Virus record (IMG/VR): IMGVR_UViG_3300034190_001539
Location: 1 to 64,000 of that record
From: a virus
Reading direction: 5' to 3' (one strand)
DNA: 64,000 nucleotides
The first letter of the stretch is position 1, and each line of letters starts with the position of its first letter. Shown here piece by piece: positions 20,940 through 41,392 of this stretch. The position numbers and the translations under genes are program-made. The notes below the pieces were generated by a model. The model did not search any database. It was not told the origin of the DNA and saw only the letters and a list, made by a program, of their open reading frames with translations.

Positions 20940-23378
20940 TTAACCATTTGGCCATCTAATTTTGTCTTTATCAGCCCAATTATCAATATTTGTTATACCG
21001 CCTCTGAATTTATTAGGATGTCTTTCATCTTGCATTGATGGACTGTGAAATCCAAATTGTCCATCCCAATCATTACCACGTTTTTCATTAGCTTCAAAGG
21101 AAAAGTCAGCTGCTAACTCTTCAGGTGCAAACTTCATTCCGTTTTCTTCTAAATACTTTCTGTGGATTCTGCAGATAGCATCATCATCCGATGGATATAA
21201 ATCTATAACATCATCTTTTTGTACAAAGTCTAACATCTTTTTACTTATCAGACTAAATCCAGCATTCCCAACATTATTTTCTTCATACCACCACGGTGCG
21301 CCTATGTAATCATAGTTTAAGAACTCATCTTTCCAAGCCTTTGGATTTAAGATAAAGCCATCAAATTCTATATGTAAAATGTATTTAGTTTTGATGTAAG
21401 AATTCATTTTTTTCCACATAAAGTGTATTACATCTAAGTTTGATTGACAATGAGGAATTTTAATTATATCATCATTGTCTCTGTCCATAGAAGTAAAGAA
21501 TTTAACATCTCCAAATTGAGCATATATAGTAGAAATATTAACTGCTCTCAAAGCCCTTTCGTAGTCAATACAATCCACTATCACCAATGTCACATCTTTT
21601 AAATCTAGCTTTTCTTTTTCATACCACCATTCTTTTCCGTGATTATACTCTCTTCTCGGTGGATATTTTTTTACTATCTGTTCCATAGTTTTGTCTTTCA
21701 TTAGAAGTGATTCGTGTCTTGGAATCTCATCGTTATATTCACCTTGCCAAGTAGATTCTACTCCAAAATGTGTGCAACCACCAACGTAACAGGCTATAAA
21801 ATTATCTCTGTTTTGTTTACCACCACTTTCTTCGTGCCACCATTGTACCCACCAATCTAAACCTGCAAACCAAGCACAGTAGTCATTATTTGTTTTTGTC
21901 TCTGAATACAAATCTACATCTATCGGTAGCATTTTAAATAATTCATCACGTCTCATCATCATATTACCAGCTCTGGCAGTTTGTCTATATAACCAATTAC
22001 CATCTTTGTGTGTAATATCGTGTTCAGGTGAATTATAAAATGTTGCTATTGTTACATTATCTTCTTCATCTAATTTATCACATAATATAGATAATGGTTC
22101 GTGATATTGATTATCGTGGTCTGAAAACATAATGTATTGGCAATTATCAAAGAACCCACTTTCCCAAATTTTATTTGTTCCACCTCTTTGTCCTAAATTT
22201 TCATCAATAGAAATTATAGTTATATTATCATATTCTTTACAAACCTCAATTGCTTGTTCTTTCAAATCAGAATTATCAGATTGTTCTAAAACACAAATTT
22301 TATCATTAGGTTCTATAACTTCCATTAAAGAATCTAAAGTTCTTTTTAAATAATAAGGTTTATTGTAACTCAATAATTGTATAGCAACTCGTGTGGCATT
22401 TTCTCCTTTACCCCAACTATGAAATCCACCCGAAAAGAATTCGTGTTGAGTAAATTCTCCTTTTATCTTTCTATGTCCTTCTTTTTTTAAATCTACCCCA
22501 TCCCAATATTTTGTTTTGAAACCAAGTATTTCTTTTACTATATCAGCTGATGTTGCTTCTTCTATCTCTACATCTTTATCTATGATTCCATAGTATTCAT
22601 CTAATTGTGATTGTGAAGTAACTACAGGATTTTGCCAACCATCAAATGTAAAATTCATCATTTCAATTAAACCCAAAGGTAGTTTATTTTGTTGTTTATA
22701 AGAAATTGAATTAAATGAACTTTGTCTGTTTTTTTCTTCGACTCTCCATTGATCCATTTCATAATCATACTTATTTGAAGTAATTAAGGGAAATCTTCCT
22801 ATATCATATCTAGCGTATAAGTTTGGTATTGGTTCATCTATATATTCTTCAACACTATTTTGATTAATATCCAATACACCTTTGTTATAAGTTTCTGTAA
22901 ATTTTATGATTTCGTCTGTGTTTTGATTAGAAAAGTGTCCTCTATCGAATTCATCTGTAGCGATGAATAGTTTACATCCTGTATGTTTTTGGAATTTTTT
23001 ACAATACTCTAACCACTCACTAGCCTCTTCCCAACTCAATGTATCTAAAACTATCTGTACATTTTTACCTCTCAAATCATAATCATATCTTTTTAAAAAA
23101 TTGAATTCACCATTTTCAACTGAATATACTTTGAAAACCCAATCAGCGTGCCATTGAACCCAATTGGATTGCCATGAACCCATACCTACAAGTTGAAATG
23201 AATCCCAATAACACAATTGTCCTTTTTGGTTTTTTAAATATTGTTCTACATATAAAGTATAATATTTATCGTTAGTGTGTATACACCTAACTATAGGATC
23301 TTTAATTATTTTGATGTGATCTTTTCTTTCTTGCATAAATTCTCCCTCCCAAGGAGCTCTAATCGGCCTTCTTCTCAT
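20940..23378 (-). CDS. Multidomain glycosyltransferase: TibC-like N-terminal module, GT2, DUF5672-like (812 aa)
   Basis: Residues ~30-145 align by eye with the N-terminal domain of the heptosyltransferase-like gene at 28180-32175 (DW..KVYS, RYDYDLRGKNVQIVL, EYCKKFQKHTGCKLFIA). Residues ~328-545 are a GT2-type domain: TRVAIQLLSYNKPYYLKRTL, DENLGQRGGTNK and the acidic FSDHDNQ that should bind nucleotide-sugar and metal. Residues ~590-812 match the DUF5672-type glycosyltransferase-like domain (DVTLVIVDCIDYERALRAV, HIEFDGFILNPKAW, YIGAPWW, GNAGFSL). It is the last gene of the glycan cassette and overlaps the carbamoyltransferase by 20 bases. The acceptor is unknown; adjacent fibre or host surface glycan are the candidates. 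Confidence 0.8.
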   Translation of the reverse strand: MRRRPIRAPWEGEFMQERKDHIKIIKDPIVRCIHTNDKYYTLYVEQYLKNQKGQLCYWDSFQLVGMGSWQSNWVQWHADWVFKVYSVENGEFNFLKRYDYDLRGKNVQIVLDTLSWEEASEWLEYCKKFQKHTGCKLFIATDEFDRGHFSNQNTDEIIKFTETYNKGVLDINQNSVEEYIDEPIPNLYARYDIGRFPLITSNKYDYEMDQWRVEEKNRQSSFNSISYKQQNKLPLGLIEMMNFTFDGWQNPVVTSQSQLDEYYGIIDKDVEIEEATSADIVKEILGFKTKYWDGVDLKKEGHRKIKGEFTQHEFFSGGFHSWGKGENATRVAIQLLSYNKPYYLKRTLDSLMEVIEPNDKICVLEQSDNSDLKEQAIEVCKEYDNITIISIDENLGQRGGTNKIWESGFFDNCQYIMFSDHDNQYHEPLSILCDKLDEEDNVTIATFYNSPEHDITHKDGNWLYRQTARAGNMMMRRDELFKMLPIDVDLYSETKTNNDYCAWFAGLDWWVQWWHEESGGKQNRDNFIACYVGGCTHFGVESTWQGEYNDEIPRHESLLMKDKTMEQIVKKYPPRREYNHGKEWWYEKEKLDLKDVTLVIVDCIDYERALRAVNISTIYAQFGDVKFFTSMDRDNDDIIKIPHCQSNLDVIHFMWKKMNSYIKTKYILHIEFDGFILNPKAWKDEFLNYDYIGAPWWYEENNVGNAGFSLISKKMLDFVQKDDVIDLYPSDDDAICRIHRKYLEENGMKFAPEELAADFSFEANEKRGNDWDGQFGFHSPSMQDERHPNKFRGGITNIDNWADKDKIRWPNG

Positions 23379-24972
23379 TTTTACTCCAATATAAATTATC
23401 CTCTACTATTAAATAATCAACAGTACCTTTTTTTAAATGTTCAAATGGTTGATTCAAATCAAATATAATTGGTTCTCCATGACCATTAAAAGATGTATTT
23501 AAAAGAACTGGTATTTTAGATATTTTATCATATTCGTTTAAGATGCTATGAAAAAACTTATTTCTTTCTTTAAAAACTAATTGTGGTCTCAGAGTATTAT
23601 CTACTCTATGAACTACAGCAGGTATTTTATCAATCCACTCATCTTTTACTGTATAACACATTGTCATAAACTCAGCAGTCATTTTTGATTTTGTATTTTT
23701 ACAAATATCATCTATCTTTTCTCCTAAAATAATCGGAGCGAATGGCATTATTTCGTGTCTTTCTAATCTGTCATTTAAAGTTTCGTGCATTTCTTTATCT
23801 GTGGCTCTAACTAATATACTTCTAGCACCCAATGCTCTAGGCCCGTATTCCATTTTTCCCTGAAAACAACCGATGATATTTCCATCATCTAATAATTGAG
23901 CAACTTTTTTAGGATTAAATTTTTCTTTTTGAAAATCCCATTCCTTTTCTTCTTTTTTTATTTCATCCTTTGTATAATGGTTTCCTAAAAACATATTTTC
24001 AAATCTTTTATTTTTCCACTCACCCAATTCTACTGATTTCATTATAGCTGCAGCTAGCGCTAATCCAGAATCACTCATAGCTGGGTAGACATATACTTCA
24101 TCAACCCAATCTAATTCATTTATTTTTTGATTTAATTTTACATTGGCAAAAATACCACCAGCAACTGCTACCCTTTTGTATTCAGGATAAAATTTATGTA
24201 AATCTTCTAAGTATTCTAAAAAAACATCCTCTGTTAATTTTTGTACATTGAAAGCCCATTCAGCTTTTATTTCAAAATTACTATTCCAATCATCAATGCT
24301 ATCTGTAATGTTTCCCATAAGAGTTTCTAATTTTTGCCAATTACCAACAGGACCGAAGCTTAAATCATTTGTATAATGTAATGTCTGTTTTAGTTTATTA
24401 TAAATTTTTTCATTATATTTTCCGTGTCCGGCCATACCCATAAGCTTTCCCTCATCTTTAAGAGAATGCCACACCTTTCCCTCTGGCGCAAACCAAGGTG
24501 TACAACGACCAAAAAACTGACCAATAGATGCTGATTTATCTTTTAATTGTTTATGTACTAAATGTAATTTATCATCATATCCTAAATAAACTCTACCAAC
24601 AGTTTTAAAACCACTTCCGTCGTGAGTAACAACTAAAGTCTTTTCTTTAAAGCCTGAAGTATAGTAAGCACCAGCAGCATGACATAAGTGATGTGGATAT
24701 GTAACAATCTTTCTTCTAATTTCATCTGATTTGTATCTATCAAAGTCTGGCTCTGCTACCTCTGCTATACATATATAATCAGAATCCTCTGTCTTATATC
24801 CAAAATCATTTTCTATTGTATCTAGAGCAAACCAAGGATAAACTCCACTAAGAGCAAAAGATTTAATCTTACGAATTCTTTCTTCTTCTATAACTATCTT
24901 TATATCACCATCCTCTATATAAGCCACACAAGAATCATGAGCATGCCCAATCAATCCAAATATCTTACTCAT
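23359..24972 (-). CDS. Carbamoyltransferase, NodU/CmcH/TobZ family, full length (537 aa)
   Basis: These enzymes carbamoylate sugar hydroxyls using carbamoyl phosphate and ATP: a C-terminal YrdC-like domain makes carbamoyl-adenylate and an N-terminal Kae1-like domain transfers it. Here the Kae1-like part shows LIGHAHDSCVAYIEDG, the metal-binding HHLCHAAGAYYTSGF and a GGIFANVKLNQKI segment. The YrdC-like part shows GCFQGKMEYGPRALGARSIL and PVLLNTSFNGHGEPI. Length is normal for the family. It overlaps both neighbours (4 bases upstream as ATGA, 20 bases downstream). It is divergent from the two other carbamoyltransferase sequences in this cassette. Confidence 0.9.
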   Translation of the reverse strand: MSKIFGLIGHAHDSCVAYIEDGDIKIVIEEERIRKIKSFALSGVYPWFALDTIENDFGYKTEDSDYICIAEVAEPDFDRYKSDEIRRKIVTYPHHLCHAAGAYYTSGFKEKTLVVTHDGSGFKTVGRVYLGYDDKLHLVHKQLKDKSASIGQFFGRCTPWFAPEGKVWHSLKDEGKLMGMAGHGKYNEKIYNKLKQTLHYTNDLSFGPVGNWQKLETLMGNITDSIDDWNSNFEIKAEWAFNVQKLTEDVFLEYLEDLHKFYPEYKRVAVAGGIFANVKLNQKINELDWVDEVYVYPAMSDSGLALAAAIMKSVELGEWKNKRFENMFLGNHYTKDEIKKEEKEWDFQKEKFNPKKVAQLLDDGNIIGCFQGKMEYGPRALGARSILVRATDKEMHETLNDRLERHEIMPFAPIILGEKIDDICKNTKSKMTAEFMTMCYTVKDEWIDKIPAVVHRVDNTLRPQLVFKERNKFFHSILNEYDKISKIPVLLNTSFNGHGEPIIFDLNQPFEHLKKGTVDYLIVEDNLYWSKNEKKAD

Positions 24973-26900
24973 AAAGCGTATTCCTTATTTATATCAACTG
25001 CAGTTTTGTATATTTCCATATCATCCCTATTTAGATTTTCTATAAATCCTCTATCTATTTTTTCATATTCTTCTTTATATAAATCCCACTTTGAGTTTTG
25101 TATAGTATTTTTAAAATCAGAATCTCCTGATTCTACATCGAAATATGGGTAATTAGAATCTTTTATTTTGACACCAAACATCTTTTCAAATTTTTTCAAA
25201 CTATCATTGTAAGATTCAGTAATTCCTATGAAATCTATTTTTTCAAAGTTTCCTTCAATATATTTACCATAAATATTTTTTGAAAATTCTAATTCACAAT
25301 ATTCATATAAACTTAAATCTTCTTCTATTATTTTATTTTGTATTGGATTGTGATGTGATGGTGAGCTTTTTAAAAAATAATATTCTGATATTAATCTGTC
25401 AATTGGATTTCTAAACCAAGTAACTAATTTATGAGAAGATAAGTCTGAATACTTACCCAATCTAAAATGTCCGTGTATACATTGAAAGTGTTTAGTATCA
25501 ACTGAGGGAGTTAATTCGTATTTATTCCAAGTTGGATGATCACCATAATCTTCATATAAAAGAAAATCTTCTTTTTTCGTAAAATATTTTTCATCATACA
25601 AAACTCTATCTCTTACATTTACCTTTGCATCTCTAGCTCCAAAAATATCATATAGTACATTTCTAAACAAATTACCACCAGTTCTAGGTATATGAGATGA
25701 TATTATCCTAAGCTTTGATTCTTCTTTTTTAGTATGAATTATTTCACCATCTTTTGGCATAGTCCATAAATCTTTATATTTATAATAATCCCACAATCTA
25801 TCATCATTGAATGGATATATCTCATCATTTAAAGCCATATCAATAGTTTCTTTAGATAGCGTAGGACATCTTTCAGTTCCCAAAGGGCTCATAGTTAAAT
25901 GTGATGTATCGGGATATAACCAACCTAAATGATTTATAGTGTCATTATATCCTGTTGTAGAGTTTTCACCCGCGCCTCCATTTGGTGATTCATTAGGAAA
26001 TAATGGTTGAAAATGTTTAACTCTTTCAAAATGTTTTTCTCCACAAGGTATAACTTCCATACGATTAGTTACTGTAAGTAAAGGTAATTGAACATAATCT
26101 GGATGAAATCCAGCAAATATAGTTTGTACACTACCTGCTTCTTTTAGTCTTTGTTTTTCTGGCAGTATTCCAATTGTCTTTAAACCTAATCCCTTTGCTA
26201 TATGATATATACTACTTTGTGCGCCTATGTATATAGGAAATTCAGCAACAAAGTCAATTAATTTATTTCTAGAAACATTTAACACATGCGTATCAGCTGA
26301 TTTAACGAGATAGTCATCGGATAAACCTAATTGTACACAACGATAAGTTTTTGATAAATGTCCAACCACTTCTTCTAATAAATCATTATCTCCAAATCTA
26401 CCACCAGTTTTACTATTTAGTGTAAACAATATAGTGTTCTTTCTCTTTTTAATATTTGGTGAAGCAAATAGTTTTGGTGTATAATCCTCTGTTCTTAATC
26501 CCCAAGTATTAGTACATCTCTGAATTGTTGTTCCAAAAGTTCCCATAGAACCCCATTTGTAATCGAAATTATGAGTACCATCTACATATGGATTGTGTTG
26601 AAATACATCAATAAACCACTTTGGTATAAATACTTTACATCCCTTATAATATATTTTTAATAACTCAGGCAGTCTAGTGTATGGAATAATATCACCAAAA
26701 GAAGTACCACGATCAGATCTGTAGTCTACTGCTATTTCGGGATGTCCTATATAAAAATTATAGTCATCAGGAACATGCGGCGGAAAACCTTCAAAATCTA
26801 ATATCTCTTCTTGAAAGTTTTTAACTTTCCAAAAGTCTTTTGTCTGATTAATATAATGAAGAATATCCCCATCGGTTTGTGGCTTTTTAGCTATATTCAT
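24969..26900 (-). CDS. GT9-like glycosyltransferase fused to sulfotransferase (643 aa)
   Basis: Residues ~45-290 resemble a GT-B heptosyltransferase/GT9 fold (IGHPEIAVDYRSDRGTSFGD, TILFTLNSKTGGRFGDNDLL, FPIYIGAQSSIYHIAKGLGL). Residues ~396-643 are a sulfotransferase: the PAPS 5'-phosphosulfate loop SSHIPRTGGNLFRNVL (401-416) and the 3'-phosphate motif VTWFRNPIDRLISEYYFL (493-510) are both present and in the right order. The product would add a sugar and sulfate an acceptor. It overlaps the truncated carbamoyltransferase by 14 bases and the next carbamoyltransferase by four. A GT9-sulfotransferase fusion is unusual; a recent gene fusion is plausible. Confidence 0.8.
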   Translation of the reverse strand: MNIAKKPQTDGDILHYINQTKDFWKVKNFQEEILDFEGFPPHVPDDYNFYIGHPEIAVDYRSDRGTSFGDIIPYTRLPELLKIYYKGCKVFIPKWFIDVFQHNPYVDGTHNFDYKWGSMGTFGTTIQRCTNTWGLRTEDYTPKLFASPNIKKRKNTILFTLNSKTGGRFGDNDLLEEVVGHLSKTYRCVQLGLSDDYLVKSADTHVLNVSRNKLIDFVAEFPIYIGAQSSIYHIAKGLGLKTIGILPEKQRLKEAGSVQTIFAGFHPDYVQLPLLTVTNRMEVIPCGEKHFERVKHFQPLFPNESPNGGAGENSTTGYNDTINHLGWLYPDTSHLTMSPLGTERCPTLSKETIDMALNDEIYPFNDDRLWDYYKYKDLWTMPKDGEIIHTKKEESKLRIISSHIPRTGGNLFRNVLYDIFGARDAKVNVRDRVLYDEKYFTKKEDFLLYEDYGDHPTWNKYELTPSVDTKHFQCIHGHFRLGKYSDLSSHKLVTWFRNPIDRLISEYYFLKSSPSHHNPIQNKIIEEDLSLYEYCELEFSKNIYGKYIEGNFEKIDFIGITESYNDSLKKFEKMFGVKIKDSNYPYFDVESGDSDFKNTIQNSKWDLYKEEYEKIDRGFIENLNRDDMEIYKTAVDINKEYAL

Positions 26901-28176
26901 TAAAAGCTCCTAATATTTCTTTTTCATTATATTTTTTTCCCATAAAAGCACTTTCCTCTCTATTAGACAAGTTGAAAATTCCTTTTTTACTATGAAAGTT
27001 AAAGTAACCATAAAAAGCACATCCTAAACTTATACCACTATCATCAGCTGCTGGAACAAAAAAGTGATTATCAAAAATATCTAAATCTATTATTTTTTGA
27101 TTTGCCACAGAATTTAAGAAACTGCCACCTGCAGCACAAAAGTTTTTGACATCTGAAATCATTGAACACTTTTTAGCTAAAAATTCAACAACTCTTTCAA
27201 ATTGATTTTGTACAAACCAAGCATGATCTGCTTTAGATTGAAAATCATTTTCATATATAGTATCACTCATATAAGATGGTATTGGTGTATTTATATACAT
27301 TTCATCTAATTCTTCTTGTTCTTCATATGGGAGGTGTTCATGAGCCCTTATCAAATATTCACCAACCTTAGGATCTTTATCAATGTATACCATTGGTTCT
27401 TTATATTTTTGTTTAACTTTATCTTCATCTCCAAAGGGAGCTAATCCCATAAGTTTTCCAGCATCATCTCCAGTCAAACCTATGTGAATACAATTGTCAT
27501 AATACCACTCCCCAAGTGATTTTCCTAATCTATATCTAGTGCTAAAACCAGAACCATCTTTGTGTTTTCCTACTGTATTAAAATATGAGTAAGCTGCTTT
27601 GTATCGAGAGTATATTCTTTTGAATACACCTTTTTTAACTTCATAAATACTAGTAGCTTCAACACACTCACCAAGTCTTGTTTTTTGAGTATGTGCTATT
27701 TTGTTTTCTACAAAATCATCTACTGTTTGTTTGTAATTCATTTCACCAGCATTGTCAGCTACTAAAATAATAGATTCATCAAAACCACTTGAGTAATGAG
27801 TTGAGTATGCGTGTGCTAAATGATGTGTACAATAATTTAATCTATCATTTGGCAAATTATATCCATTTTTTTTCAACTTCTGAACTAAAAATCCGTCTAC
27901 ACTTATTTGTTGGTCTGGTGTTAAACCAATGCCATTCCAAACAATTCTATCTAAATCCATTTTCTGTATATTAGCATAGTCTAAACAATAGTCCATAGCT
28001 TTCCAAGGAAATTCTATTAATGAATAATCCCAATTATTTTCTTCTGGCGATGGATAGCCATTGTCATTTTTAATTCTAGTAATTCTTTCTAAATTTATAG
28101 AAACGAATACCTTGCCTTCTCTCAGTAAAGTAGCGCCAGATTGATGTCCTATGTTTACACCTAAAACCCAAGTCAT
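26887..28176 (-). CDS. Truncated carbamoyltransferase: Kae1-like domain only (429 aa)
   Basis: It is closely similar along its whole length to the carbamoyltransferase part of the upstream fusion protein (VLGVNIGHQSGATLLREGKV, THHLAHAYSTHYSSGF, AAGGSFLNSVANQKIIDLDI, NREESAFMGKKYNEKEI). It stops exactly where the paralogue continues into the YrdC-like domain. The metal-binding HHLAHA is kept, so the transfer domain could still work if carbamoyl-adenylate comes from another protein, or the gene may be decaying. Its end overlaps the GT9-sulfotransferase start by 14 bases. This looks like a local duplication followed by replacement of the 3' part. Confidence 0.85.
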   Translation of the reverse strand: MTWVLGVNIGHQSGATLLREGKVFVSINLERITRIKNDNGYPSPEENNWDYSLIEFPWKAMDYCLDYANIQKMDLDRIVWNGIGLTPDQQISVDGFLVQKLKKNGYNLPNDRLNYCTHHLAHAYSTHYSSGFDESIILVADNAGEMNYKQTVDDFVENKIAHTQKTRLGECVEATSIYEVKKGVFKRIYSRYKAAYSYFNTVGKHKDGSGFSTRYRLGKSLGEWYYDNCIHIGLTGDDAGKLMGLAPFGDEDKVKQKYKEPMVYIDKDPKVGEYLIRAHEHLPYEEQEELDEMYINTPIPSYMSDTIYENDFQSKADHAWFVQNQFERVVEFLAKKCSMISDVKNFCAAGGSFLNSVANQKIIDLDIFDNHFFVPAADDSGISLGCAFYGYFNFHSKKGIFNLSNREESAFMGKKYNEKEILGAFNEYS

Positions 28177-28179
28177 TTA

Positions 28180-31100
28180 TTAGTCTCTGATTGGTGTTAT
28201 TAAATAATTTTCTACAACTAAATAATCAATATCATTTTTAAGAAAACATCTTATAGCATCAGCAGGTGTCTCTACTATAGGTTCACCAGCCTCATTAAAA
28301 GATGTATTCAATATTACTGGAATGCCTGATAGCTTTCCGAACTCTTTTATAACATCATAATATCTTTGATTGGTTTCTCTTCTTACAGTTTGTAATCTAG
28401 CAGTTCCATCTACGTGTGTTATGGATGGCAACTTTTTTTTAAACTCCTCTTTTACTTGAGCTATTAACAACATATATGGGCTTTCTGTAGTATGTGTAAA
28501 GTATTTATCAGCATCTTCTACAGTACAAGCAGGAGCAAATGGTCTATACCACTCTCTATGTTTTACCCTATTGTTAATTATATCTTGCATATCGGGATGT
28601 GTTGGATCTCCTAATATACTACGATGTCCTAATGCTCTTGGCCCCATTTCACTTCCACCTTGAAAGAAACCAACAACTTTTCCTTCGTGTACAAATGAGG
28701 CAATTTTTTTAGCTAAAGCATCCTCATCCTCAATTTTTTCGTAAGTTATTTTATCAACATTATTTATATCACTCATTATTTCCTCCTCAGAGTAATCTTT
28801 ACCCATAAAGACAGTCTCTTCTTTATTACTTAAATTTACCTTACCTTTGTCAGGATGAAAATTGTAATATCCATAAAAAGCAGTTCCAATTGATATACCA
28901 CCATCGTCTGCTGCTGGTACATAAAAATGGTCATCAAATAAATCTAAATCGACTATTTTTTGATTAGCAATTGAATTAAGGAAGCAACCACCAGCGCCTG
29001 TCAAGTATTTAACATCGGAATTCATTGAAGCCTTTTTAGCTAAAAATAATATTAAATCTTCAAATTTATTTTGAATCATCCAAGCCCAATCAGCTTTTGA
29101 TTGAAAATCTTCTGATGCTATATTAGAACTAAAATATTCTGGTCTTGGAGAATCTATATACATAAGAGTTTCTGCAGTTTGTTCTTCTCTCGGAACTGCG
29201 TGATGTACTCTTATAAAATAATCTCCTGATTTTGGGTCTGGGTCTATATAAACCATTTTCTCATTAAATCTTTTGTTAGCTACCTCAGGCCTACCATATG
29301 AAGCTAAACCCATAAGTTTTCCAGCATCATATAGTCCATCCATACCTATGTAGTTACAACCTAAAGCATAAAGTTCTCCAACTGACTGTCCTAATGTCGG
29401 CCATAATTCACCAGCTTCTGGAAAAGGTTTATAAGCTCCGTATATTTTAGTGAATACACCCTTTTTAATTTCATAGATACTACTGGCCTCTACACATTTC
29501 TCTATCGGATATTTTTTCATATGTGCTATTTTGTTGGTGGTGAACTTATCAATCACATCTCTGAAATTGGTTTCTCCGCCAGCATCTACTACAATCGAAA
29601 CAGACTCTTCAAACCCACTCGAATAGTGTGCTGAATAAGCATGAGCTAAATGATGAGTACAATAGTTTAATCTATCTTCAGTAAAATGCCAACCATTGTC
29701 TTTTAGTCTATTAGCCCAAAGTCCATTTGGATCAATTGCTAAGTCAGGAGGTAAACCTATACCATTCCAAACAATTCTTTCCAAATCTTTTTTAGTTATT
29801 CCAGCATAATCTAAACAATATTCCATAGCTTTCCAAGGAAAATCATCATTAGCCTCATCGTGCTTTATTCTAGAAATTCTTTCTGAATTTATTGAGACAA
29901 ATACTTTTCCATTTTTTACTAGTGTAGCGCCAGAGTCGTGTCCAATATTTACCCCCATAACCCATCTATCTTCACCAACTTTAATAGGTTCTATGTTATT
30001 TTTGTTTTTATTAAAAACAATAGTTCCATCATATGAATCACTGCTACCTTTTTTATATTTAGGTACAAAACCACATTTTGTTAATTTTTTTAATAAAGGC
30101 TGTAATCTATCAGTATTATGATGAAACTCTAATAAGATTTGATTTACATTATTTTTTAAATAATCTTCGCTAGCATTTAAGAAGATTTCATATTCGGCAC
30201 CCTCTACATCACATTTAATAAGATCTATATAATCTATTTTGTTCTGTTTGATAAAATCATCAAAAGACAAACATTCAACATTAGCAGTTGTTATATCTCT
30301 TTCAAATGTATATGGATTGTTATAATTAACAGGATTAACCCATTTTTCTATTTCAGGCCAATCGTTGATATAAAAAGAACCATTTGATGTAGAATGTTGT
30401 GGGTATTTTAACCATCTATTTTCAGTAATTTCTCCTAATGCACTATTGGAAATAATTACATTATCTGATTCTTTAAATGTTTTGTTAAGTCCACTCCACA
30501 AATCCGGATTTGGTTCTAGTGAATAACAAACTTTAACATTTTGTTTTGAAACCCATCTTGTGAAAACTCCTATATGTGATCCTATATCCATCACCACAGA
30601 ATCTTCGTTAAGATTGAATAAACCTTTATACTCATCTGCATAAAATATTTCTTTATGGTTTGCCCAATTTACATCAAATTCATTAGTTATATATTTAAAT
30701 TCATCTTTATTTTTAACAGAGTTGTCATTTAATTTTATGCTAAATGTTTTAATTTTAATTTTTTCTTTTGTGTAAACTACGACATCTACTTTATCTAAAT
30801 AATAATTTTCCCAAGGAGTAACATAATTAAATGGAAGCCAATAAGATGTATTCTCATCAAAAGCTATTTTTGAAGTGTATAAGGTTAAATCAGAATATGG
30901 GTCTACTACTCTGACAATAAATTCCGATTTCCTATCATTATAAAACCAAAGTTTACCTACTTCTGTTGCATCTACTGTTAGATTTGTAACATTTTTTATC
31001 TTATTACCTAATTTTATTTTTTTATTTAACATAACTTTTATTCCCTCAATCACCATTTCAGGTGTTATTTTTTTAGTACACTCAAATTCTCTATCTGTTC

Positions 31101-32175
31101 CTTTTTGTTTTGGACAAAAATTCCAATCGCCTGGAGAAAAACCATCTGTATGCCAACAACCTGTACAAACATTGTCATCATTTTCTAAGTTGATGTGTTT
31201 GGTTTTATCAGCAAAATTATACCAAGAATAATTATGTCCGTGAATTAAAACCACTGGAATATCTACAGCCCAAGCCAACCAACTTAATCCAGAACTTACA
31301 CCTATAAATAGTTCAGCATACTTTAAATCACCAATTCTATCTTCAATTGGTAAATCACCTGATTTATCAATAATACCAGTCGGATTTATATTGCCCATAT
31401 AACCGCTATCTTCTCTAGATAAATATACAACTTTATACCCAATCTTCAAAAAATAATCAACTACTTTTTGCCAACCACCATCATTATTCCAATATTTAAG
31501 TTGTGCGCTAGCGTGGGGTCCTATACAAATGTACTTACCCTCAATTTTATTTTTAGGTTCAAATTTTTCTAAATTAAGCTTTGGTTTAATTTCTTTAGTT
31601 GGCAATCCTAATATATCCGAAGCTGCTTGTTGCATAGAAATATTAGATAAGTCTACTTTATTATAAGAATCATTAAATTCATAAAATGGTTCTGTATTTT
31701 TATAACCAAAAACACCAACCTCATATGTAGCATAAAAAGATTTTGTTGGCCATTCTGATCCTTCTTTCCAAAAAGTAAAATCGTAAGTTTCTTTAAATAT
31801 TTCTGGAAAAATTGTTCCACAGAATATTTTACAATTATGTTTTTTTCTAAACTCTTCTACATAAGAAATCCAGGCAAAGTTGTCGCCTAACATATTTGAA
31901 GATATTCTTACAAAAACTTCTTTGTCTTTTAAATCTAATTGATGTTCATAGATTAGTTTACCATCTTCATATATTACTATCTTCCAATCAGTATACCATT
32001 TTCTAGAATACATAGCTGAAACACCAATTGATACTGTAGCATCGTATACTAATGTATCAGCATCCCAAAACTCTATGGTATATTCGGAATTATTTTTACG
32101 CTTTGAATTGATTATTACAAATGGACCTGAATCGAAGTTGAATTCTATTTTCAAATCTCTTATAGTCTTTATCAA
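28180..32175 (-). CDS. Triple fusion: TibC-type O-heptosyltransferase, FkbM methyltransferase, carbamoyltransferase (1331 aa from TTG)
   Basis: Residues 1-390 match autotransporter strand-loop-strand O-heptosyltransferases: YTDWKIVIYEDGKLIYEHQL, EEFRKKHNCKIFCGT, QQAASDILGLPTKEIKPKL, SSGLSWLAWA, and four Cys (337, 340, 354, 366) spaced like the TibC iron finger. Residues ~495-722 are an FkbM-family SAM methyltransferase (VVMDIGSHIGVFTRW, DLIKCDVEGAEYEIF). Residues ~738-1331 are a complete NodU-type carbamoyltransferase (THHLAHAYSAHYSSGF, GGSEMGPRALGHRSILGDP, LNTSFNEAGEPI). A beta-rich linker lies between ~395 and 495. The readable frame starts at TTG 32175. A better ATG at 32195 (AAAGGG five bases upstream) is one base out of frame across an A8 tract. 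First gene of the cassette. Confidence 0.88.
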   Translation of the reverse strand: MIKTIRDLKIEFNFDSGPFVIINSKRKNNSEYTIEFWDADTLVYDATVSIGVSAMYSRKWYTDWKIVIYEDGKLIYEHQLDLKDKEVFVRISSNMLGDNFAWISYVEEFRKKHNCKIFCGTIFPEIFKETYDFTFWKEGSEWPTKSFYATYEVGVFGYKNTEPFYEFNDSYNKVDLSNISMQQAASDILGLPTKEIKPKLNLEKFEPKNKIEGKYICIGPHASAQLKYWNNDGGWQKVVDYFLKIGYKVVYLSREDSGYMGNINPTGIIDKSGDLPIEDRIGDLKYAELFIGVSSGLSWLAWAVDIPVVLIHGHNYSWYNFADKTKHINLENDDNVCTGCWHTDGFSPGDWNFCPKQKGTDREFECTKKITPEMVIEGIKVMLNKKIKLGNKIKNVTNLTVDATEVGKLWFYNDRKSEFIVRVVDPYSDLTLYTSKIAFDENTSYWLPFNYVTPWENYYLDKVDVVVYTKEKIKIKTFSIKLNDNSVKNKDEFKYITNEFDVNWANHKEIFYADEYKGLFNLNEDSVVMDIGSHIGVFTRWVSKQNVKVCYSLEPNPDLWSGLNKTFKESDNVIISNSALGEITENRWLKYPQHSTSNGSFYINDWPEIEKWVNPVNYNNPYTFERDITTANVECLSFDDFIKQNKIDYIDLIKCDVEGAEYEIFLNASEDYLKNNVNQILLEFHHNTDRLQPLLKKLTKCGFVPKYKKGSSDSYDGTIVFNKNKNNIEPIKVGEDRWVMGVNIGHDSGATLVKNGKVFVSINSERISRIKHDEANDDFPWKAMEYCLDYAGITKKDLERIVWNGIGLPPDLAIDPNGLWANRLKDNGWHFTEDRLNYCTHHLAHAYSAHYSSGFEESVSIVVDAGGETNFRDVIDKFTTNKIAHMKKYPIEKCVEASSIYEIKKGVFTKIYGAYKPFPEAGELWPTLGQSVGELYALGCNYIGMDGLYDAGKLMGLASYGRPEVANKRFNEKMVYIDPDPKSGDYFIRVHHAVPREEQTAETLMYIDSPRPEYFSSNIASEDFQSKADWAWMIQNKFEDLILFLAKKASMNSDVKYLTGAGGCFLNSIANQKIVDLDLFDDHFYVPAADDGGISIGTAFYGYYNFHPDKGKVNLSNKEETVFMGKDYSEEEIMSDINNVDKITYEKIEDEDALAKKIASFVHEGKVVGFFQGGSEMGPRALGHRSILGDPTHPDMQDIINNRVKHREWYRPFAPACTVEDADKYFTHTTESPYMLLIAQVKEEFKKKLPSITHVDGTARLQTVRRETNQRYYDVIKEFGKLSGIPVILNTSFNEAGEPIVETPADAIRCFLKNDIDYLVVENYLITPIRD

Positions 32176-32195
32176 TTTTTTTTCTCTTTAGCCAT
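32176..32195 (-). promoter_or_regulatory. A8 tract between a well-placed ATG and the fusion-gene frame
   Basis: Sense ATGGCTAAAGAG is followed by eight A and then TTG. With nine A, ATG at 32195 would read MAKEKKKLIKTIRDLK in frame with the fusion protein; with eight it stops after MAKEKKN. The tract may mediate slippage or phase variation, or be an assembly error. Confidence 0.55.
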
Positions 32196-32504: not shown

Positions 32505-33278
32505 TTATCCTGTTATGTAAATACCTAAGAAAAGAGTACCCATATTTGATCCGTAACCATAGCCTGTAAAATCAATAGTATTAGAAGAAAATGTAATTTC
32601 AGGAAACCTTAGATAAACATCTTTGCTAGCACCAGCACCACTTGATTCATAATAAATAGTATCACCATTTACACCTGTTCCACTTGACGGAGGTGTACCA
32701 TTACGGTGATTCCATCTTCCTGCCGTAGTCGCAGTAGCTATATCAATAAATGTAGCGCTGTGATCGTATGCTGTATTAGTGGTTAGGGATGTTGTTTGAA
32801 TACCAGTGAATCCTGCTGTAGCGAATGATGACCATCTTTCGGTGGAGTTATAATTTATTCTTCTCACCTGAGCATCAGATCTAAAAGAAGTTCCTGACTC
32901 AAATCTAAAGAAAATGTGACCTGTATTGCCGATGATTGATGCTCCTGCATAAGCTGCTGCTGATAAATCTATACCGGAAACAGTTACTAAACCAGTACCT
33001 TGATCTCCTGAAAACATTTGAGTAGAGCTACTATTACCATAAGAGCCTACCGCTACCTTATCATGATCGTAGGCATAAAATTCGGACATCGCGTGTGGAG
33101 TAAGACCATCAGGTCTATCATCGGAAGCATTAGCAGTATTTATAGTACCTTCTATACCACGAGAACAATCTTCTAATGATATTGGATTACCATCAAAAAT
33201 AGCTGTTGAATAATCATTGGTTCTTATTTCTTGATGTATACCTTTTAATGATATTGCACCACTACTTGGAACTGCCAT
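32505..33278 (-). CDS. Tail-fibre/adhesin-like protein (257 aa)
   Basis: The N-terminal pattern PSSGAISLKGIHQEIRTNDY, then ISLEDCSRGIEG and MSEFYAYDHD, is typical of short phage tail-fibre tip or adhesin proteins (SSGxISxxDI repeats). The rest is Ser/Thr/Gly-rich and beta-like, ending in hydrophobic TLFLGIYITG. Its ATG overlaps the stop of the 2704-aa fibre gene (TAATG), so it is translationally coupled to it and probably attaches to or assembles with that fibre. Assignment rests on pattern and position. Confidence 0.6.
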   Translation of the reverse strand: MAVPSSGAISLKGIHQEIRTNDYSTAIFDGNPISLEDCSRGIEGTINTANASDDRPDGLTPHAMSEFYAYDHDKVAVGSYGNSSSTQMFSGDQGTGLVTVSGIDLSAAAYAGASIIGNTGHIFFRFESGTSFRSDAQVRRINYNSTERWSSFATAGFTGIQTTSLTTNTAYDHSATFIDIATATTAGRWNHRNGTPPSSGTGVNGDTIYYESSGAGASKDVYLRFPEITFSSNTIDFTGYGYGSNMGTLFLGIYITG

Positions 33279-36200
33279 TATTTCAACGCCTCTAGTTCTC
33301 GTCTAAGTTCATCGATTTGTTTTTGTTGGTCCTTTATAGACTCTATTAGTAATGGAACTATCTTTTCGTATTTTACTGTCAAGTAATCTTCACCAGATTT
33401 TGAATTACCATCTTTATCTAAATCAAAAGGAGCAATATGAACAACTTCTGGTAATACTTTTTGTACAGATTGTGCACTAACACCTATTTGAATATCATCA
33501 TGTTCAAATCCAAAACTTTTTGCTAAATCATTGTTTTTGTAAGTAAATACTTCTATATCCTTAATTTTATTTATTGGATTATCTATACCAATTTTAATTC
33601 TATCTTTTAGTCTAGTATCTGAATAGTAAGCAGTTACATCACCAGTGACTGTAAAGTTGGTTGTAGTTACATCAATTCTAGCGGTAGAATCTCCATCATA
33701 AATTGCAATTCGTTGAGTAGAATTTCCACCACCATTTAAGAAAAGAGTACCTCCATTTTTAGCACTTACAAATGTGTGACCATCTGTCGTATCATAAAGC
33801 ATCAGATAATCAGTAGTATTATGGTCATCTGTAGTGAATGCTAAATATCTAGCAGTGCTAGCTGCCCAAGGTTTCATTTGAAAATGATGAGTTGCTACTG
33901 TAGCGGCTGAAAAGTCTCCTGTTATATCTAAAGGACCAGTAAGAATGAAATCAGTACCATCCCATACTAAAGAAGCATCAAAACTCGCAACCGCTGCCCC
34001 AGTTCCAAATACAAGCTTTGTATTATCATAAAATTTAAGGTGGTCTTGTGATTCATCCCAAATCATTTTTCTAGCTGAGGTAGCACCAAAGAATGTTACA
34101 TCTATTCCAGTATCATCTACACCAAATTCAACTGGAGCACCTGAAAATCTAGATTGATCTTCGGCAAAATGAACCCTTTCACCAATAGCTTTAATTGTAA
34201 CATTATTGATTGCATCTGAGTCTTGGGTGTCACCTATTGTCATTGTTTGACCATTGACATGTATTCCACCATTTTGAGCATTATGGCCAGATGATGCTAT
34301 CTTTAGTTCTGCATTAGTTGCACTTACTGACAAAATAGTACCATCAAAAGTCATATTAGCTTCAGCATTTATTGTAGATGAATCTACAGATGTTATTACT
34401 CTGTTATTAGTCTGATTGGTATACGAAGTTATTCCAGCATTACCACCAGTTCCACCAGTAGCACCTTGAGCGCCTTGCGCTCCAGTTCCGCCTGTTCCAC
34501 CAGTAGCACCTGTACCACCTGTTCCACCAGTGCCTGTTCCACCAGTTCCACCAGTAGCTCCAGTTTGACCTGTACCACCAGTTCCGCCTGTTCCACCAGT
34601 AGCACCTGTACCACCAGTTCCGCCTGTGCCAGTTCCACCAGTTCCACCAGTTCCACCTGTTCCGCCTGTAGCGCCAGTTTGACCAGTTCCTCCTGTTCCG
34701 CCTGTTTCTCCAGTACCACCAGTACCACCAGTTCCAGTTCCGCCAGTACCACCTGTGTGACCTGTACCACCAGTAGCACCAGTTGCTCCAGTAGCGCCTG
34801 TTTGTCCAGTTCCTCCAGTTCCACCAGTTCCAGTTCCACCTGTTCCGCCAGTAATGCCTTGCGCTCCAATTCCACCTGTTCCGCCTGTAATGCCTTGCGC
34901 TCCAATTCCACCAGTTCCTCCAGTTTGACCTGTACCACCAGTAGCACCAGTTGCTCCAGTAGCGCCTGTTTGTCCAGTTCCTCCTGTACCACCAGTTCCA
35001 GTTCCACCAGTTCCGCCAGTACCACCAGTACCACCAGTATGTCCAGTAGCACCTGTAGCGCCTGTTTGTCCAGTTCCGCCAGTTCCGCCAGTACCAGTAC
35101 CACCAGTACCACCAGTTCCGCCTGTTCCACCTGTTCCACCAGTAGCACCTACACCACCAGTACCACCTGTTTGACCTGTTCCACCAGTACCACCAGTGCC
35201 TGTTCCACCAGTTCCGCCAGTGTGACCTGTTCCCCCAGTTCCACCAGTATTACCTTGTCCACCAGTTCCGCCTGTTTGTCCAGTTCCACCTGTTCCACCA
35301 GTACCTGTTCCGCCTGTTCCACCAGTTTGACCAGTTCCGCCTGTTCCACCAGTTCCACCAGTCGCTGTACTAGCTGCTCCAGTTCCACCAGTTCCACCAG
35401 TTCCACCAGTAGCACCTGTTTGTCCAGTTCCTCCAGTTCCGCCAGTTCCGCCTGTTTGTCCAGTTCCGCCAGTTCCACCAGTTGCTCCTTGCGCTCCAAT
35501 TCCACCAGTTCCGCCTGTACCAGTTCCACCAGTTCCACCAGTAGCACCTGTTTGTCCAGTTCCTCCAGTTCCTCCAGTTCCGCCAGTTGCTCCTTGCGCT
35601 CCAGTTCCGCCTGTTCCTCCAGTACCTGTTCCACCAGTTCCACCAGTTGCTCCAGTTTGACCTGTACCGCCAGTTCCACCTGTCTGTCCAGTTCCACCTG
35701 TTCCACCAGTTTGACCTGTTCCACCAGTTCCGCCTGTTGCTGTACTAGCTGCTCCAGTTCCGCCAGTACCACCAGTACCAGTTCCGCCTGTTCCACCAGT
35801 TCCTCCAGTAGCGCCAGTTTGACCTGTTCCGCCTGTTCCACCAGTTGCTCCTTGCGCTCCAATTCCACCAGTTCCACCTGTGCCAGTTCCACCAGTTCCA
35901 CCAGTAGCACCTGTCTGTCCAGTACCACCTGTTCCGCCAGTTCCACCAGTAGCACCTTGCGCTCCAGTTCCGCCAGTTCCGCCAGTGCCAGTTCCACCAG
36001 TTCCACCAGTTCCACCAGTAGCACCTGTTTGTCCAGTTCCTCCAGTTCCGCCAGTTGCTCCTTGCGCCCCAATTCCACCAGTTCCTCCAGTACCTGTTCC
36101 GCCAGTACCACCTGTGTGACCTGTACCACCAGTTCCACCAGTAGCTCCTACTCCACCAGTTCCACCTGTTGCACCTACTCCACCAGTACCACCAGTACCT

Positions 36201-39200
36201 GTACCACCAGTTCCACCAGTTGCTCCAGTAGCACCTGTTTGTCCAGTTCCACCAGTTCCACCAGTAGCGCCTTGCGTTCCAATTCCACCAGTTCCTCCAG
36301 TGCCTGTTCCGCCAGTACCACCAGTTGCTCCAGTAGCACCTGTTTGTCCAGTTCCACCAGTTCCTCCAGTAGCGCCTTGCGTTCCAATTCCACCTGTTCC
36401 ACCAGTACCAGTTCCACCAGTACCACCTGTGTGACCAGTTCCACCAGTTCCGCCTGTAGCACCTACTCCGCCAGTTCCGCCTGTAGCACCTACACCACCA
36501 GTTCCACCAGTACCAGTTCCGCCAGTTCCACCAGTAGCACCAGTTGCTCCAGTAGCGCCTGTTTGTCCAGTCCCACCAGTTCCGCCAGTTTGACCTGTAC
36601 CACCAGTTCCGCCTGTGCCAGTTCCACCAGTTCCGCCTGTAGCACCTGTTTGTCCAGTTCCACCAGTACCACCAGTTGCTGTACTAGCTGCTCCAGTTCC
36701 GCCAGTTCCACCAGTTCCAGTTCCGCCAGTTCCACCTGTGTGACCAGTTCCGCCAGTTCCGCCTGTAGCTCCTATACCACCAGTACCACCTGTTGCGCCT
36801 ACACCACCAGTTCCGCCTGTAGCACCTACACCGCCAGTTCCACCAGTAGCACCTGTTTGTCCAGTTCCGCCTGTTCCACCAGTAGCACCTGTTTGTCCAG
36901 TTCCACCAGTACCACCAGTTCCTACTGTATAATCTACTCCATCTATTTGTAACAATCCAAACGAACCAGTTGAGGTTGATGAACCACTTATTGCATGTTG
37001 TCCACCAGTATAAACTATTCCATCACCCGTACCATTGTTTGTAATTGTTATTGCACCATTATTACCATCTTGCCTTAGATGTATTAATTCATTGTCCATT
37101 GAAGCATTTTCAGCAATAACACTAACAAGTGGATTTGCGGTAGCTGCCGCATTTGAGTATATCTCTAATGCTTTATCACCCGAATTAGTCGTATCTATGT
37201 AAACAGCTGGTGTGTCATAATCATCATGGTCAATGTGTATTGCTGTTTTATTATCTGAATATATTGATAGTGCAGCAGTATTTTCAATGTTTGATGAGTG
37301 TCCACCAAAAATTGACATTTTTTGAAATACTTCAAGTTTGTCCTCTACACGAGCTTTACTTGATTCTAACCTACCAAACGAACCAGTTGATGTTACTGAG
37401 CCACTTATGTTTCCAAGAGGCAACTCCAAATTACCTTCTTTAGTTAGTATAAAAGTATCTTGCATACCACCATCATTTTGTGATATAACAAACGATACAC
37501 TTGTTTCATCAAATCTTACTTTATTTTCACCACCTAATTTTAATTGACCAGTGTTTACAACCTCAGTTGTCATCTGAGAGTTGTCTACTTTAAATTTATC
37601 GTTTCCACCATTTCTATAAACTAATTGGTCATTATCATAAACTAATGAACCATTAGCATCAAAAACATAACTAAAAGATGTACCCTCTGTCCTTCCAAAC
37701 GAACCAGTTGATTCAAATGAACCACTTAAAAAAGTTCCATCAATAGTAAAGTTAGATTCAGCAGTTCCTGAACCATCACCATCTGCAGTTAATATTCTGT
37801 TCTCTCCATCATTGGCGATTGCCATAAATCCACCAGTTCCGCCTGTTTGACCTGTGCCACCAGTTCCACCAGTAGCACCTGTTTGTCCAGTTCCGCCTGT
37901 TCCACCAGTAGCACCTATACCACCAGTTCCACCAGTTCCAGTTCCACCAGTTCCGCCAGTAGCACCAGTTGCTCCAGTCTGTCCAGTTCCTCCAGTTCCT
38001 CCAGTTTGACCTGTACCACCAGTTCCACCAGTTTCGCCTGTTCCTCCTGTACCACCAGTCGCTGTACTAGCTGCTCCAGTTCCACCTGTACCACCAGTAC
38101 CAGTTCCACCAGTACCACCTGTGTGACCAGTTCCACCAGTTCCGCCTGTTTGTCCAGTTCCTCCTGTTCCGCCAGTTTGACCTGTACCACCAGTTCCACC
38201 AGTGCCTGTTCCACCAGTACCACCAGTTGCTCCAGTAGCACCAGTTGCTCCAGTTTGTCCAGTTCCTCCTGTTCCGCCAGTTTGACCTGTACCACCAGTT
38301 CCACCAGTGCCTGTTCCACCAGTTCCACCAGTTCCGCCTGTAGCGCCTGTTTGTCCAGTTCCACCTGTTCCGCCTGTAGCGCCTTGCGCTCCAATTCCAC
38401 CAGTTCCTCCAGTACCTGTTCCACCAGTTCCACCAGTCGCTCCAGTTGCTCCAGTTTCACCTGTTTGACCAGTTCCGCCTGTTCCGCCTGTAACACCTAC
38501 TCCACCAGTACCACCAGTACCAGTTCCGCCAGTTCCACCAGTAGCGCCAGTCTGACCTGTACCACCAGTTCCGCCAGTTTGACCAGTTCCGCCTGTTCCA
38601 CCTGTTTCGCCTGTACCACCAGTTCCGCCTGTTGCTGTACTAGCTGCTCCAGTTCCACCTGTTCCACCAGTACCTGTTCCACCAGTACCACCAGTAGCAC
38701 CTGTTGCTCCAGTCTGTCCAGTTCCACCAGTTCCGCCTGTAGCGCCTTGCGCTCCAATTCCTCCAGTACCACCAGTTCCAGTTCCACCTGTTCCGCCTGT
38801 TTGACCAGTACCACCTGTTCCACCAGTAGCACCTATACCACCAGTTCCTCCTGTAGCACCTACTCCACCAGTACCGCCAGTTCCAGTTCCACCTGTTCCG
38901 CCAGTTTGACCTGTTCCACCAGTACCGCCAGTACCTGTTCCACCAGTTCCGCCTGTGCCTCCTGTTGCACCTGTTTCTCCAGTTCCTCCAGTACCCCCAG
39001 TAGCGGTAGACGCAGCGCCAGTTCCGCCTGTTCCACCAGTTCCAGTTCCTCCTGTTCCGCCTGTTTCTCCAGTTCCACCAGTTCCGCCTGTTTGTCCAGT
39101 TCCGCCAGTTCCCCCTGTAACACCTACTCCACCAGTACCACCAGTGCCTGTTCCACCAGTTCCACCAGTTCCGCCTGTTGCTCCAGTAGCACCTGTTTGT

Positions 39201-41392
39201 CCAGTTCCTCCTGTTCCACCAGTTTGTCCAGTTCCTCCTGTACCACCAGTTCCAGTTCCACCAGTTCCGCCAGTAGCACCAGTTGCTCCAGTTTGTCCAG
39301 TTCCGCCAGTTCCGCCTGTCTCTCCATTACCGCCAGTACCACCAGTTCCAGTACCACCAGTTCCACCAGTTTGACCTGTTCCGCCAGTACCACCAGTTCC
39401 CTGACCACCAGTTCCGCCTGTTCCACCTGTATCTCCTACACCACCAGTACCACCAGTTCCAGTACCACCAGTTCCACCAGTTGCTCCAGTTGCTCCAGTT
39501 TGACCTGTTCCACCAGTACCACCAGTTGCTGTGCTAGCTGCTCCAGTACCACCAGTTCCACCAGTGCCAGTTCCACCAGTTCCGCCAGTACCACCAGTTG
39601 TTCCATCACCGCCAGTTCCTCCTGTAGAACCTACACCACCAGTTCCGCCAGTAACTCCTATACCACCAGTTCCGCCAGTACCTGTTCCGCCTGTTCCGCC
39701 AGTAGCACCAGTAGCTCCTGTTTGACCAGTTCCACCAGTTCCACCAGTTTCACCTGTTCCGCCTGTTCCGCCTGTTACTCCATCTCCACCTGTTCCACCA
39801 GTAACACCTATACCACCAGTTCCACCTGTGCCAGTTCCACCAGTTCCGCCTGTTTGACCAGTTCCACCTGTTCCTCCAGTTCCTTGTCCACCAGTTCCAC
39901 CAGTTGCTCCAGTTTGTCCAGTTCCGCCAGTTCCACCAGTACCTGTACCACCAGTTCCACCTGTTGCACCTGCTCCACCAGTACCACCAGTTCCAGTTCC
40001 GCCAGTTCCGCCTGTCTGCCCAGTTCCGCCTGTTCCACCAGTTTGACCTGTACCACCAGTTCCGCCTGTTTCGCCTGTTCCACCAGTTCCACCTGTGCCA
40101 GTTCCACCAGTTCCGCCTGTTTGACCAGTTCCACCTGTTCCACCAGTAACACCTATACCACCAGTACCACCAGTTCCTTGACCACCAGTACCACCTGTGT
40201 GACCTGTTCCACCAGTTCCTCCAGTTCCAGTTCCGCCAGTTCCTCCAGTTTCGCCTGTAGCACCTGTTTGTCCAGTTGCTCCAGTAGCACCTGTTTGTCC
40301 AGTTCCACCAGTTCCGCCTGTTTGACCTGTGCCACCAGTACCGCCAGTTCCTTGTCCACCAGTTCCACCAGTTCCACCTGTAACACCTACACCACCAGTT
40401 CCACCTGTGCCAGTTCCGCCAGTTCCACCAGTAGCACCTACACCACCAGTTCCGCCTGTCTGCCCAGTACCACCAGTTCCGCCTGTTTCACCTGTTCCAC
40501 CAGTACCACCAGTTCCAGTTCCACCTGTTCCACCAGTTGCTCCAGTTGCTCCAGTTTGACCTGTACCGCCAGTTCCACCTGTCTGTCCAGTTCCACCAGT
40601 TCCGCCTGTAGCACCTACACCACCAGTTCCGCCAGTTCCAGTTCCGCCAGTTCCACCAGTAGCACCAGTTGCTCCAGTAGCGCCTGTTTGTCCAGTTCCA
40701 CCTGTTCCGCCTGTCTGTCCAGTTCCACCTGTACCACCAGTACCAGTTCCACCAGTACCACCTGTTCCGCCTGTTGCTCCAGTAGCACCTGTTTGCCCAG
40801 TTCCACCAGTTCCGCCTGTCTGTCCAGTTCCACCAGTACCACCAGTACCAGTTCCGCCTGTTCCACCTGTTCCACCAGTAGCACCTACACCACCTGTTCC
40901 GCCAGTTTCACCTGTTCCACCAGTACCACCAGTACCAGTTCCACCAGTTCCACCAGTTGCTCCAGTAGCACCTGTTTGTCCAGTTCCGCCTGTTCCACCA
41001 GTAGCACCTATACCACCAGTTCCACCAGTTCCAGTTCCACCAGTTCCACCTGTTCCGCCTGTTGCTCCATCACCACCAGTTCCGCCAGTAGCACCTTCAC
41101 CACCAGTTCCACCAGTAGCACCAGTAGCGCCAGTAGCGCCAGTAGCACCAGTTGCTCCAGTAGCTCCAGTTTGACCAGTTCCACCAGTTCCACCAGTTCC
41201 TACTGTATAATCTTCACCATTTATTTGTAAAACACCAAATGAACCAGTTGATATTGCTGAACCACTAATATTACCAGCTACTGATATATAACCAAAAGAA
41301 CCCGATGTTTCGGATGAACCACTAATATTACCTTTCTTAACGATAATATCGTGATTAAATACATTTTTACCTATGTATTTGGGATTAGACAT
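33278..41392 (-). CDS. Giant collagen-like fibre with S74 intramolecular chaperone (2704 aa)
   Basis: Domain order: residues 1-67, beta-type with SGSxxTSGSFG motifs; ~68-1187, Gly-X-Thr collagen-like repeat; ~1188-1489, beta-rich middle domain again carrying STGSFG motifs; ~1490-2319, second Gly-X-Thr repeat; ~2320-2590, beta-rich tip; 2591-2704, peptidase S74 chaperone ([12 protein letters not shown] with the Ser-Asp autocleavage pair, [15 protein letters not shown]) ending in a coiled coil. S74 domains trimerise fibres and then cut themselves off, so the mature protein should be a trimer. X is mostly Gly, Gln, Ala, Glu, Val or Ile and I see no Pro, Lys or Arg in the repeats. It is probably the long receptor-binding fibre. 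It lies next to the glycan cassette. Confidence 0.9.
34435..36925 (-). repeat. Second collagen-like (Gly-X-Thr)n tract, ~830 codons
   Basis: The tract is a 9-bp quasi-repeat (sense GGN NNN ACN) with frequent synonymous variation. It is broken by Gly-Thr dipeptides about every 30 residues and by three GAASTAT interruptions (near 35365, 35742 and 36679). Confidence 0.9.
37830..41190 (-). repeat. First collagen-like (Gly-X-Thr)n tract, ~1120 codons
   Basis: Same 9-bp quasi-repeat as the second tract, with Gly-Thr dipeptide interruptions in blocks of 29-35 residues and four GAASTAT interruptions (near 38059, 38634, 39003 and 39529). Long open frames on the plus strand here are shadows of this repeat. 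Confidence 0.9.

Follow-up and report, generated by a model that had tools for sequence, protein, structure and literature searches.

What would a phage modify with a single protein that joins a sugar transferase, a methyltransferase, and a carbamoyltransferase? The question is raised by a 64,000-nucleotide stretch of viral DNA (herein the window; positions 1 to 64,000 of IMG/VR record IMGVR_UViG_3300034190_001539), in which such a fusion is encoded near a long collagen-like fiber. We put somewhat better than an even chance on a reading in which the fusion adds an O-linked sugar, a methyl group, and a carbamoyl group to the fiber of its own phage. The features on which the argument turns are as follows.

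28180..32175, minus strand: three-part fusion protein, 1331 amino acids (aa), TibC-type glycosyltransferase / linker / FkbM methyltransferase / O-carbamoyltransferase (open reading frame [ORF], profile, PHROG, and PDB sequence searches)
31024..32175, minus strand: TibC-type (BAHT, GT9) O-heptosyltransferase domain, aa 1 through 384, with base D98, sugar-binding K227/R280/W299, and iron-finger Cys337/340/354/366 (profile and alignment)
30661..31023, minus strand: beta-rich linker, aa 385 through 505, possibly a second TibC-type beta-barrel on weak evidence (structure prediction and comparison)
30001..30660, minus strand: FkbM methyltransferase domain, aa 506 through 725 (VMDIGSHIG, KCDVEGAEYEIF), absent along with the linker in sister phage L339 (profiles and motif)
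28786..29961, minus strand: carbamoyltransferase N (Kae1-like) domain, aa 739 through 1130, HHLAH motif (Pfam, PHROG, and motifs)
28183..28785, minus strand: carbamoyltransferase C (YrdC-like) domain, aa 1131 through 1331 (Pfam, PDB, and motifs)
32172..32195, minus strand: short ATG...TGA relic ending in the TGA that shares bases with the TTG start codon of the fusion, matching the final part of the upstream methyltransferase gene in L011 (sequence read directly)
33278..41392, minus strand: candidate acceptor fiber, 2704 aa, with a C-terminal Peptidase_S74 and two collagen-like blocks (profile and composition)

The fusion frame opens with TTG and has no internal stops. Three enzyme families share one chain, as the original prediction had claimed: the TIGR04414, FkbM, and Carbam_trans N and C profiles all match within the uninterrupted 1331 aa, and a PDB sequence search returned independent matches to TibC (4rap/4rb4), GdmN, and TobZ. 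Judged from sequence, the TibC-type, FkbM, and carbamoyltransferase assignments are near certain. The chain is not a chimeric assembly, because another contig, L010, matches aa 310 through 1331 at 100% identity and L011 holds a full-length copy at 83%; in all, three other contigs (L009, L010, and L011) have the three-part fusion. The TTG start shares bases with a TGA stop (AATTGATA), and the L011 junction is identical. There the TGA closes a 186-aa methyltransferase-like gene, of which the window retains only the short relic. A poly-A indel concealing an upstream ATG start was considered and rejected, because in L011, too, TTG and TGA overlap where the upstream gene ends.

The hepto_Aah_TibC profile (TIGR04414) scores 269 bits over aa 9 through 380, above its equivalog cut-off of 200. 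On alignment to 4rap, the catalytic base D110 of TibC falls on D98 of the fusion and the sugar-binding residues K230, R286, and W305 fall on K227, R280, and W299; T226 becomes S223, the single Thr-to-Ser change among the sugar-binding residues. The four iron-finger cysteines, predicted to be preserved, are indeed all present, with C337, C340, C354, and C366 aligning with TibC Cys339, 342, 358, and 370. Heptose stereoselectivity depends on a position that is Pro300 in TibC and Ser294 in AAH (PMC4358343); the fusion has Ser there, as in AAH, so by the logic of that study it could accept both ADP-heptose epimers.

For the methyltransferase domain, TIGR01444 (76 bits, cut-off 37.7; aa 527 through 685) and PF05050 (60 bits, cut-off 22.7; aa 530 through 704) agree, and the S-adenosylmethionine-binding motif VMDIGSHIG begins at aa 528. 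Carbam_trans_N (95 bits) and Carbam_trans_C (240 bits) cover aa 836 through 1326, the PHROG 1601 match spans aa 739 through 1326, and the family-invariant columns are present in both domains; the score against the NodU equivalog NF041651 (150 bits) is far under its cut-off of 1000. Domain searches therefore found each of the three families with its motifs intact, leaving no family undetected and no active site broken. The linker had been described as beta-rich, and this is borne out by an all-beta prediction of modest confidence for aa 385 through 485. An AlphaFold2 model from two sequences has a mean predicted local distance difference test score of 46, Foldseek places TibC at E 6e-3 amid unrelated beta-sandwich matches, and HHalign gives 38%; a second TibC-type beta-barrel is suggestive only.

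What might these enzymes act on? TibC hyperglycosylates a long repetitive adhesin that is usually encoded beside its own gene (PMC4358343). No autotransporter substrate gene is present beside the fusion; its neighbor is the collagen-like S74 fiber, on the same strand and 1.1 kb upstream. Adjacency of BAHT and substrate genes is described as "often" found (PMC4358343), hence typical and not strictly defining. The collagen blocks of the fiber (aa 62 through 1192, 37817-41209; aa 1488 through 2321, 34430-36931) total 1965 aa and contain 614 Thr and no Pro, Lys, or Arg. Of 597 parsed Gly-X-Y triplets, 452 have Thr at Y, and short interruptions often disrupt the register. Bacterial collagens average 19 to 31% Pro at X, and glycosylation is reported for the Thr-rich bacterial collagen BclA (PMC8968730). 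BclA and its relatives resemble the phage fiber in carrying Thr at Y; they differ in that the fiber blocks are without Pro, the transferase is TibC-type, and glycosylation of the fiber is proposed rather than reported. Between collagen fiber and fusion in L011, a 250-aa frame (L011:7221-7973) matches TIGR02466 below cut-off (38 of 62.5 bits). TIGR02466 is probably an oxygenase-like family; such an enzyme next to a collagen would be of note.

From gene layout and relatives, we infer that the fiber is fairly probably the substrate of the fusion. Late in infection, the TibC domain would transfer heptose or a related sugar, probably from host ADP-heptose, to fiber Ser/Thr, with the hundreds of Thr at Y of the Gly-X-Thr repeats as the main acceptor sites; such transfer is proposed because TibC hyperglycosylates an adjacent repetitive adhesin and BclA is a glycosylated Thr-rich collagen. 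Next, the glycan would be O-methylated by the tethered FkbM domain and O-carbamoylated by the tethered carbamoyltransferase domain; the products of neighboring genes (GT9-like/sulfotransferase, GT2-DUF5672, and a second carbamoyltransferase) may extend or cap it. Successive transfer, methylation, and carbamoylation of one sugar, as in the original prediction, is chemically plausible, although the methyl and carbamoyl groups may instead go onto another part of the glycan than the transferred sugar. That prediction named neither the fiber as acceptor nor the other genes of the glycan block. The resulting coat might stabilize a proline-free collagen, shield the fiber, or alter its binding.

We also counted collagen-like genes at other TibC loci. 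For collagen we used thresholds of 20 to 30 triplets, 5 or 10 kb, and less than 0.03 Pro per triplet, settled on in the course of the analysis rather than beforehand; the contigs are fragments and the loci ranked matches, not a random sample, so the p-values are descriptive. A collagen-like gene is found on 11 of 12 tiled TibC phage contigs, at 123 to 1148 bp in seven pairs (two of them in G012) and 4 to 21 kb in the rest (combined p against random placement, 0.011). After deduplication, with viral TibC loci of at least 10 kb, collagen genes occur at 20/48 viral TibC loci, compared with 2/58 viral carbamoyltransferase loci and 1/63 bacterial TibC loci; the viral comparison supersedes one (31/85 vs. 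2/78) that contained duplicate contigs. The excess over both carbamoyltransferase and bacterial TibC loci is strong. Composition also sets apart the collagens that lie no more than 5 kb from TibC: 21 of 24 are Pro-poor and Ser/Thr-rich at Y, compared with 2 of 13 elsewhere (p = 3e-5). FkbM loci were set aside as a control, being too few (3/10) and in some cases TibC contigs themselves.

Individual pairs vary. G012 (the contig of L057) has TibC genes at 1875-2957 and 72644-73732, each ~0.2 kb from its own collagen-like gene. Of two jumbo phages with TibC, L421 has no collagen within 15 kb and L422 has one: at L422:8035-10122 (LR756501.1, a 735-kb uncultured phage record), a TibC gene and a Pro-free, Ser-rich collagen-like frame are ~4 kb apart. 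In Microcystis phage Mel-JY01 (PP395634.1), the plus strand of L008:2-3052 holds an open frame of 1016 aa rich in Gly-Thr-Ser/Gly-Ser-Ser collagen-like repeats, over which the existing annotation places mainly minus-strand hypothetical proteins.

These counts also bear on the possibility that the acceptor is a different virion protein, such as a capsid or tail-tube protein or the 257-aa product encoded between fiber and fusion. Glycans are carried by virion proteins of mycobacteriophages, at the C termini of capsid and tail-tube proteins (Freeman 2023, cited in PMC12619734), an acceptor different from a fiber; the 257-aa protein adjoins the fusion and is Ser/Thr-rich by eye. It is the collagen-like gene, however, that recurs as a common feature of unrelated viral TibC loci, homologs of the 257-aa protein not having been searched for, and we regard a different virion acceptor as improbable.

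Several points weigh against glycosylation of the fiber by the fusion. Collagen is found at 7/33 tail-sheath loci, from which the TibC loci (20/48) do not differ significantly (p = 0.06); because of this, location in the fiber region accounts for part of the TibC-collagen association. In the converse test, TibC is present on 9/38 contigs with Pro-free collagens and 2/29 with Pro-rich ones (p = 0.10); no TibC is detectable on the other 29 of the 38, so fibers of this kind do not need TibC. No ADP-heptose pathway gene was recognized among the proteins scanned, a subset of the ORFs. The substrates known for TibC are beta-helical autotransporters that receive sugar on Ser, whereas the fiber is a collagen that would receive it on Thr. 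TibC acts as a dodecamer, an assembly that a 1331-aa fusion might not be able to form.

The wider setting of the fusion is that of a T4-like myovirus, as judged by major capsid Gp23, T4-type portal, terminase, tail-sheath stabilizer, and tail sheath. The source record is incomplete at 101,285 bases; its tail sheath is closest to those of Microcystis phage Mel-JY01, an uncultured phage, and a Flavobacterium phage, in that order. Read along the reverse strand, capsid genes come first, followed by the fiber, 257-aa gene, fusion, 429-aa, 643-aa, 537-aa, and 812-aa genes, a 101-aa ORF, and the sheath. The fusion, 329 bases from the 257-aa gene, heads a block of glycan genes between fiber and sheath with successive gaps of +3, -14, -4, and -20 bases.

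32505..33278, minus strand: 257-aa protein between fiber and fusion, no family match (profile searches)
26887..28176, minus strand: 429-aa paralog limited to the carbamoyltransferase N domain, sharing 57% identity with the N domain of the fusion, kept in L009, L010, and L011 and absent from L339 (profile and comparison)
24969..26900, minus strand: 643-aa protein, C-terminal half sulfotransferase (PF03567), N-terminal half GT9-like by eye only (profile)
23359..24972, minus strand: second complete O-carbamoyltransferase, 537 aa (Pfam, PHROG, and motifs)
20940..23378, minus strand: 812-aa protein, TibC-type N-terminal beta domain with GT2 and DUF5672 (profiles and comparison)

The 429-aa paralog, which has no C (YrdC-like) domain, is 97% identical between window and L011, compared with 83 to 88% for the fusion; perhaps its partner is the C domain of a neighbor.

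Comparison with relatives separates the parts of this system. In sister phage L339 (sheath 78% identical), a 1016-aa protein joins TibC (aa 4 through 389) directly to carbamoyltransferase (aa 403 through 1001). As precisely the linker and methyltransferase are missing, the methyltransferase step is a separable module, gained or lost, and would be optional in the proposed pathway. The L339 block is otherwise identical, without the 429-aa paralog, and a Gly-Gly-Thr collagen end lies ~2 kb upstream. In L341 and L340 (sheath 73%), the block is not seen in the available DNA, L340 being a short contig, and the fibers encoded immediately upstream of the sheath are S74-type, built of non-collagen repeats. 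Within the lineage, then, the block accompanies a Gly-X-Thr fiber (window, L011, and L339) and is missing with a non-collagen fiber (L341 and L340).

This covariation with fiber type bears on the main rival, that the block alters a host cell-surface polysaccharide (O-antigen or capsule) and thereby blocks superinfection. Carbamoyl-, methyl-, and sulfotransferases commonly modify polysaccharides. Pelagimyophages, T4-like aquatic phages, likewise have glycan genes beside fiber genes in a host-recognition cluster, and the glycosyltransferases there are interpreted in this way, as modifying lipopolysaccharide (LPS) to block superinfection; the portion of PMC7029224 available mentions neither TibC-type enzymes nor carbamoyltransferases. 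The TibC family, by contrast, has protein as its sugar acceptor (PMC4358343), and the window block sits among late structural genes, with no integrase or lysogeny signs seen, although no dedicated search was made. We consider modification of the host surface unlikely, if the strongest of the alternatives.

A phage carbamoyltransferase of the same superfamily produces 5-carbamoyloxymethylcytosine (PMC8670742), which raises the further alternative that the block hypermodifies phage DNA, with its carbamoyltransferase acting on 5-hydroxymethylcytosine as in MetaGPA. In that study a PF00303 enzyme accompanies the carbamoyltransferase; none is found in the 101-kb incomplete record, whose thymidylate synthase is ThyX (PF02511). 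Carbamoyltransferases on unmodified contigs in PMC8670742 adjoin glycosyltransferases, as in the window, and DNA hypermodification appears very improbable.

The fusion is like TibC and AAH (BAHT; 4rap, 4rb4) in its whole-length match, with the same base, sugar-binding residues, and iron-finger Cys, and in the nearness of its gene to a long repetitive surface protein; it differs in being phage encoded, joined to FkbM and carbamoyltransferase domains, with an AAH-type Ser at the stereoselectivity position and a collagen-like fiber in place of an autotransporter as neighbor. TobZ, GdmN, NodU, and phage PHROG 1601 share its N and C domains with family-invariant motifs, whereas in this phage the carbamoyltransferase is the C-terminal part of a protein-glycosyltransferase fusion. 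A full-text search of openly licensed papers found none connecting TibC or BAHT to phages, which is not proof of novelty. If true, our reading would extend TibC-type protein heptosylation beyond bacterial adhesins to phage tail fibers, supply a concrete acceptor for glycan genes of host-recognition regions hitherto read as LPS- or DNA-modifying, and offer a possible account of stability in a collagen without proline. Because a similar pairing exists in Mel-JY01, which has been isolated, the idea is directly testable.

Other viral TibC proteins are standalone, fused to GT4-type domains, or followed by FkbM (L066, L080, and L029), and L084 has a carbamoyltransferase gene that overlaps one for TibC. 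Among the proteins listed from a midpoint-rooted FastTree phylogeny, the viral TibC proteins appear to cluster away from most bacterial ones. It is a tentative generalization, to which we give somewhat less than an even chance, that many phages carry dedicated collagen O-glycosylation, in which TibC-type transferases, frequently joined in one chain with additional glycosyltransferases, FkbM, or carbamoyltransferases, coat proline-free Gly-X-Ser/Thr fibers with sugar that stabilizes them as hydroxyproline does animal collagen. In a 2859-aa frame at L019:270-8849, a TibC domain at the C terminus accompanies three FkbM-like matches.

The remainder of the record holds frames of 4103 aa (L006:169-12480) and 2266 aa (L007:3169-9969) with zero Pfam matches. 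A 1262-aa protein at 58515-62303, rejected as a phage ADP-heptose synthase on its match to nicotinamide mononucleotide (NMN)-adenylyltransferase-like proteins, combines an AAA/zeta-toxin-like kinase domain with a cytidylyltransferase-like (NMN-adenylyltransferase-like) domain.

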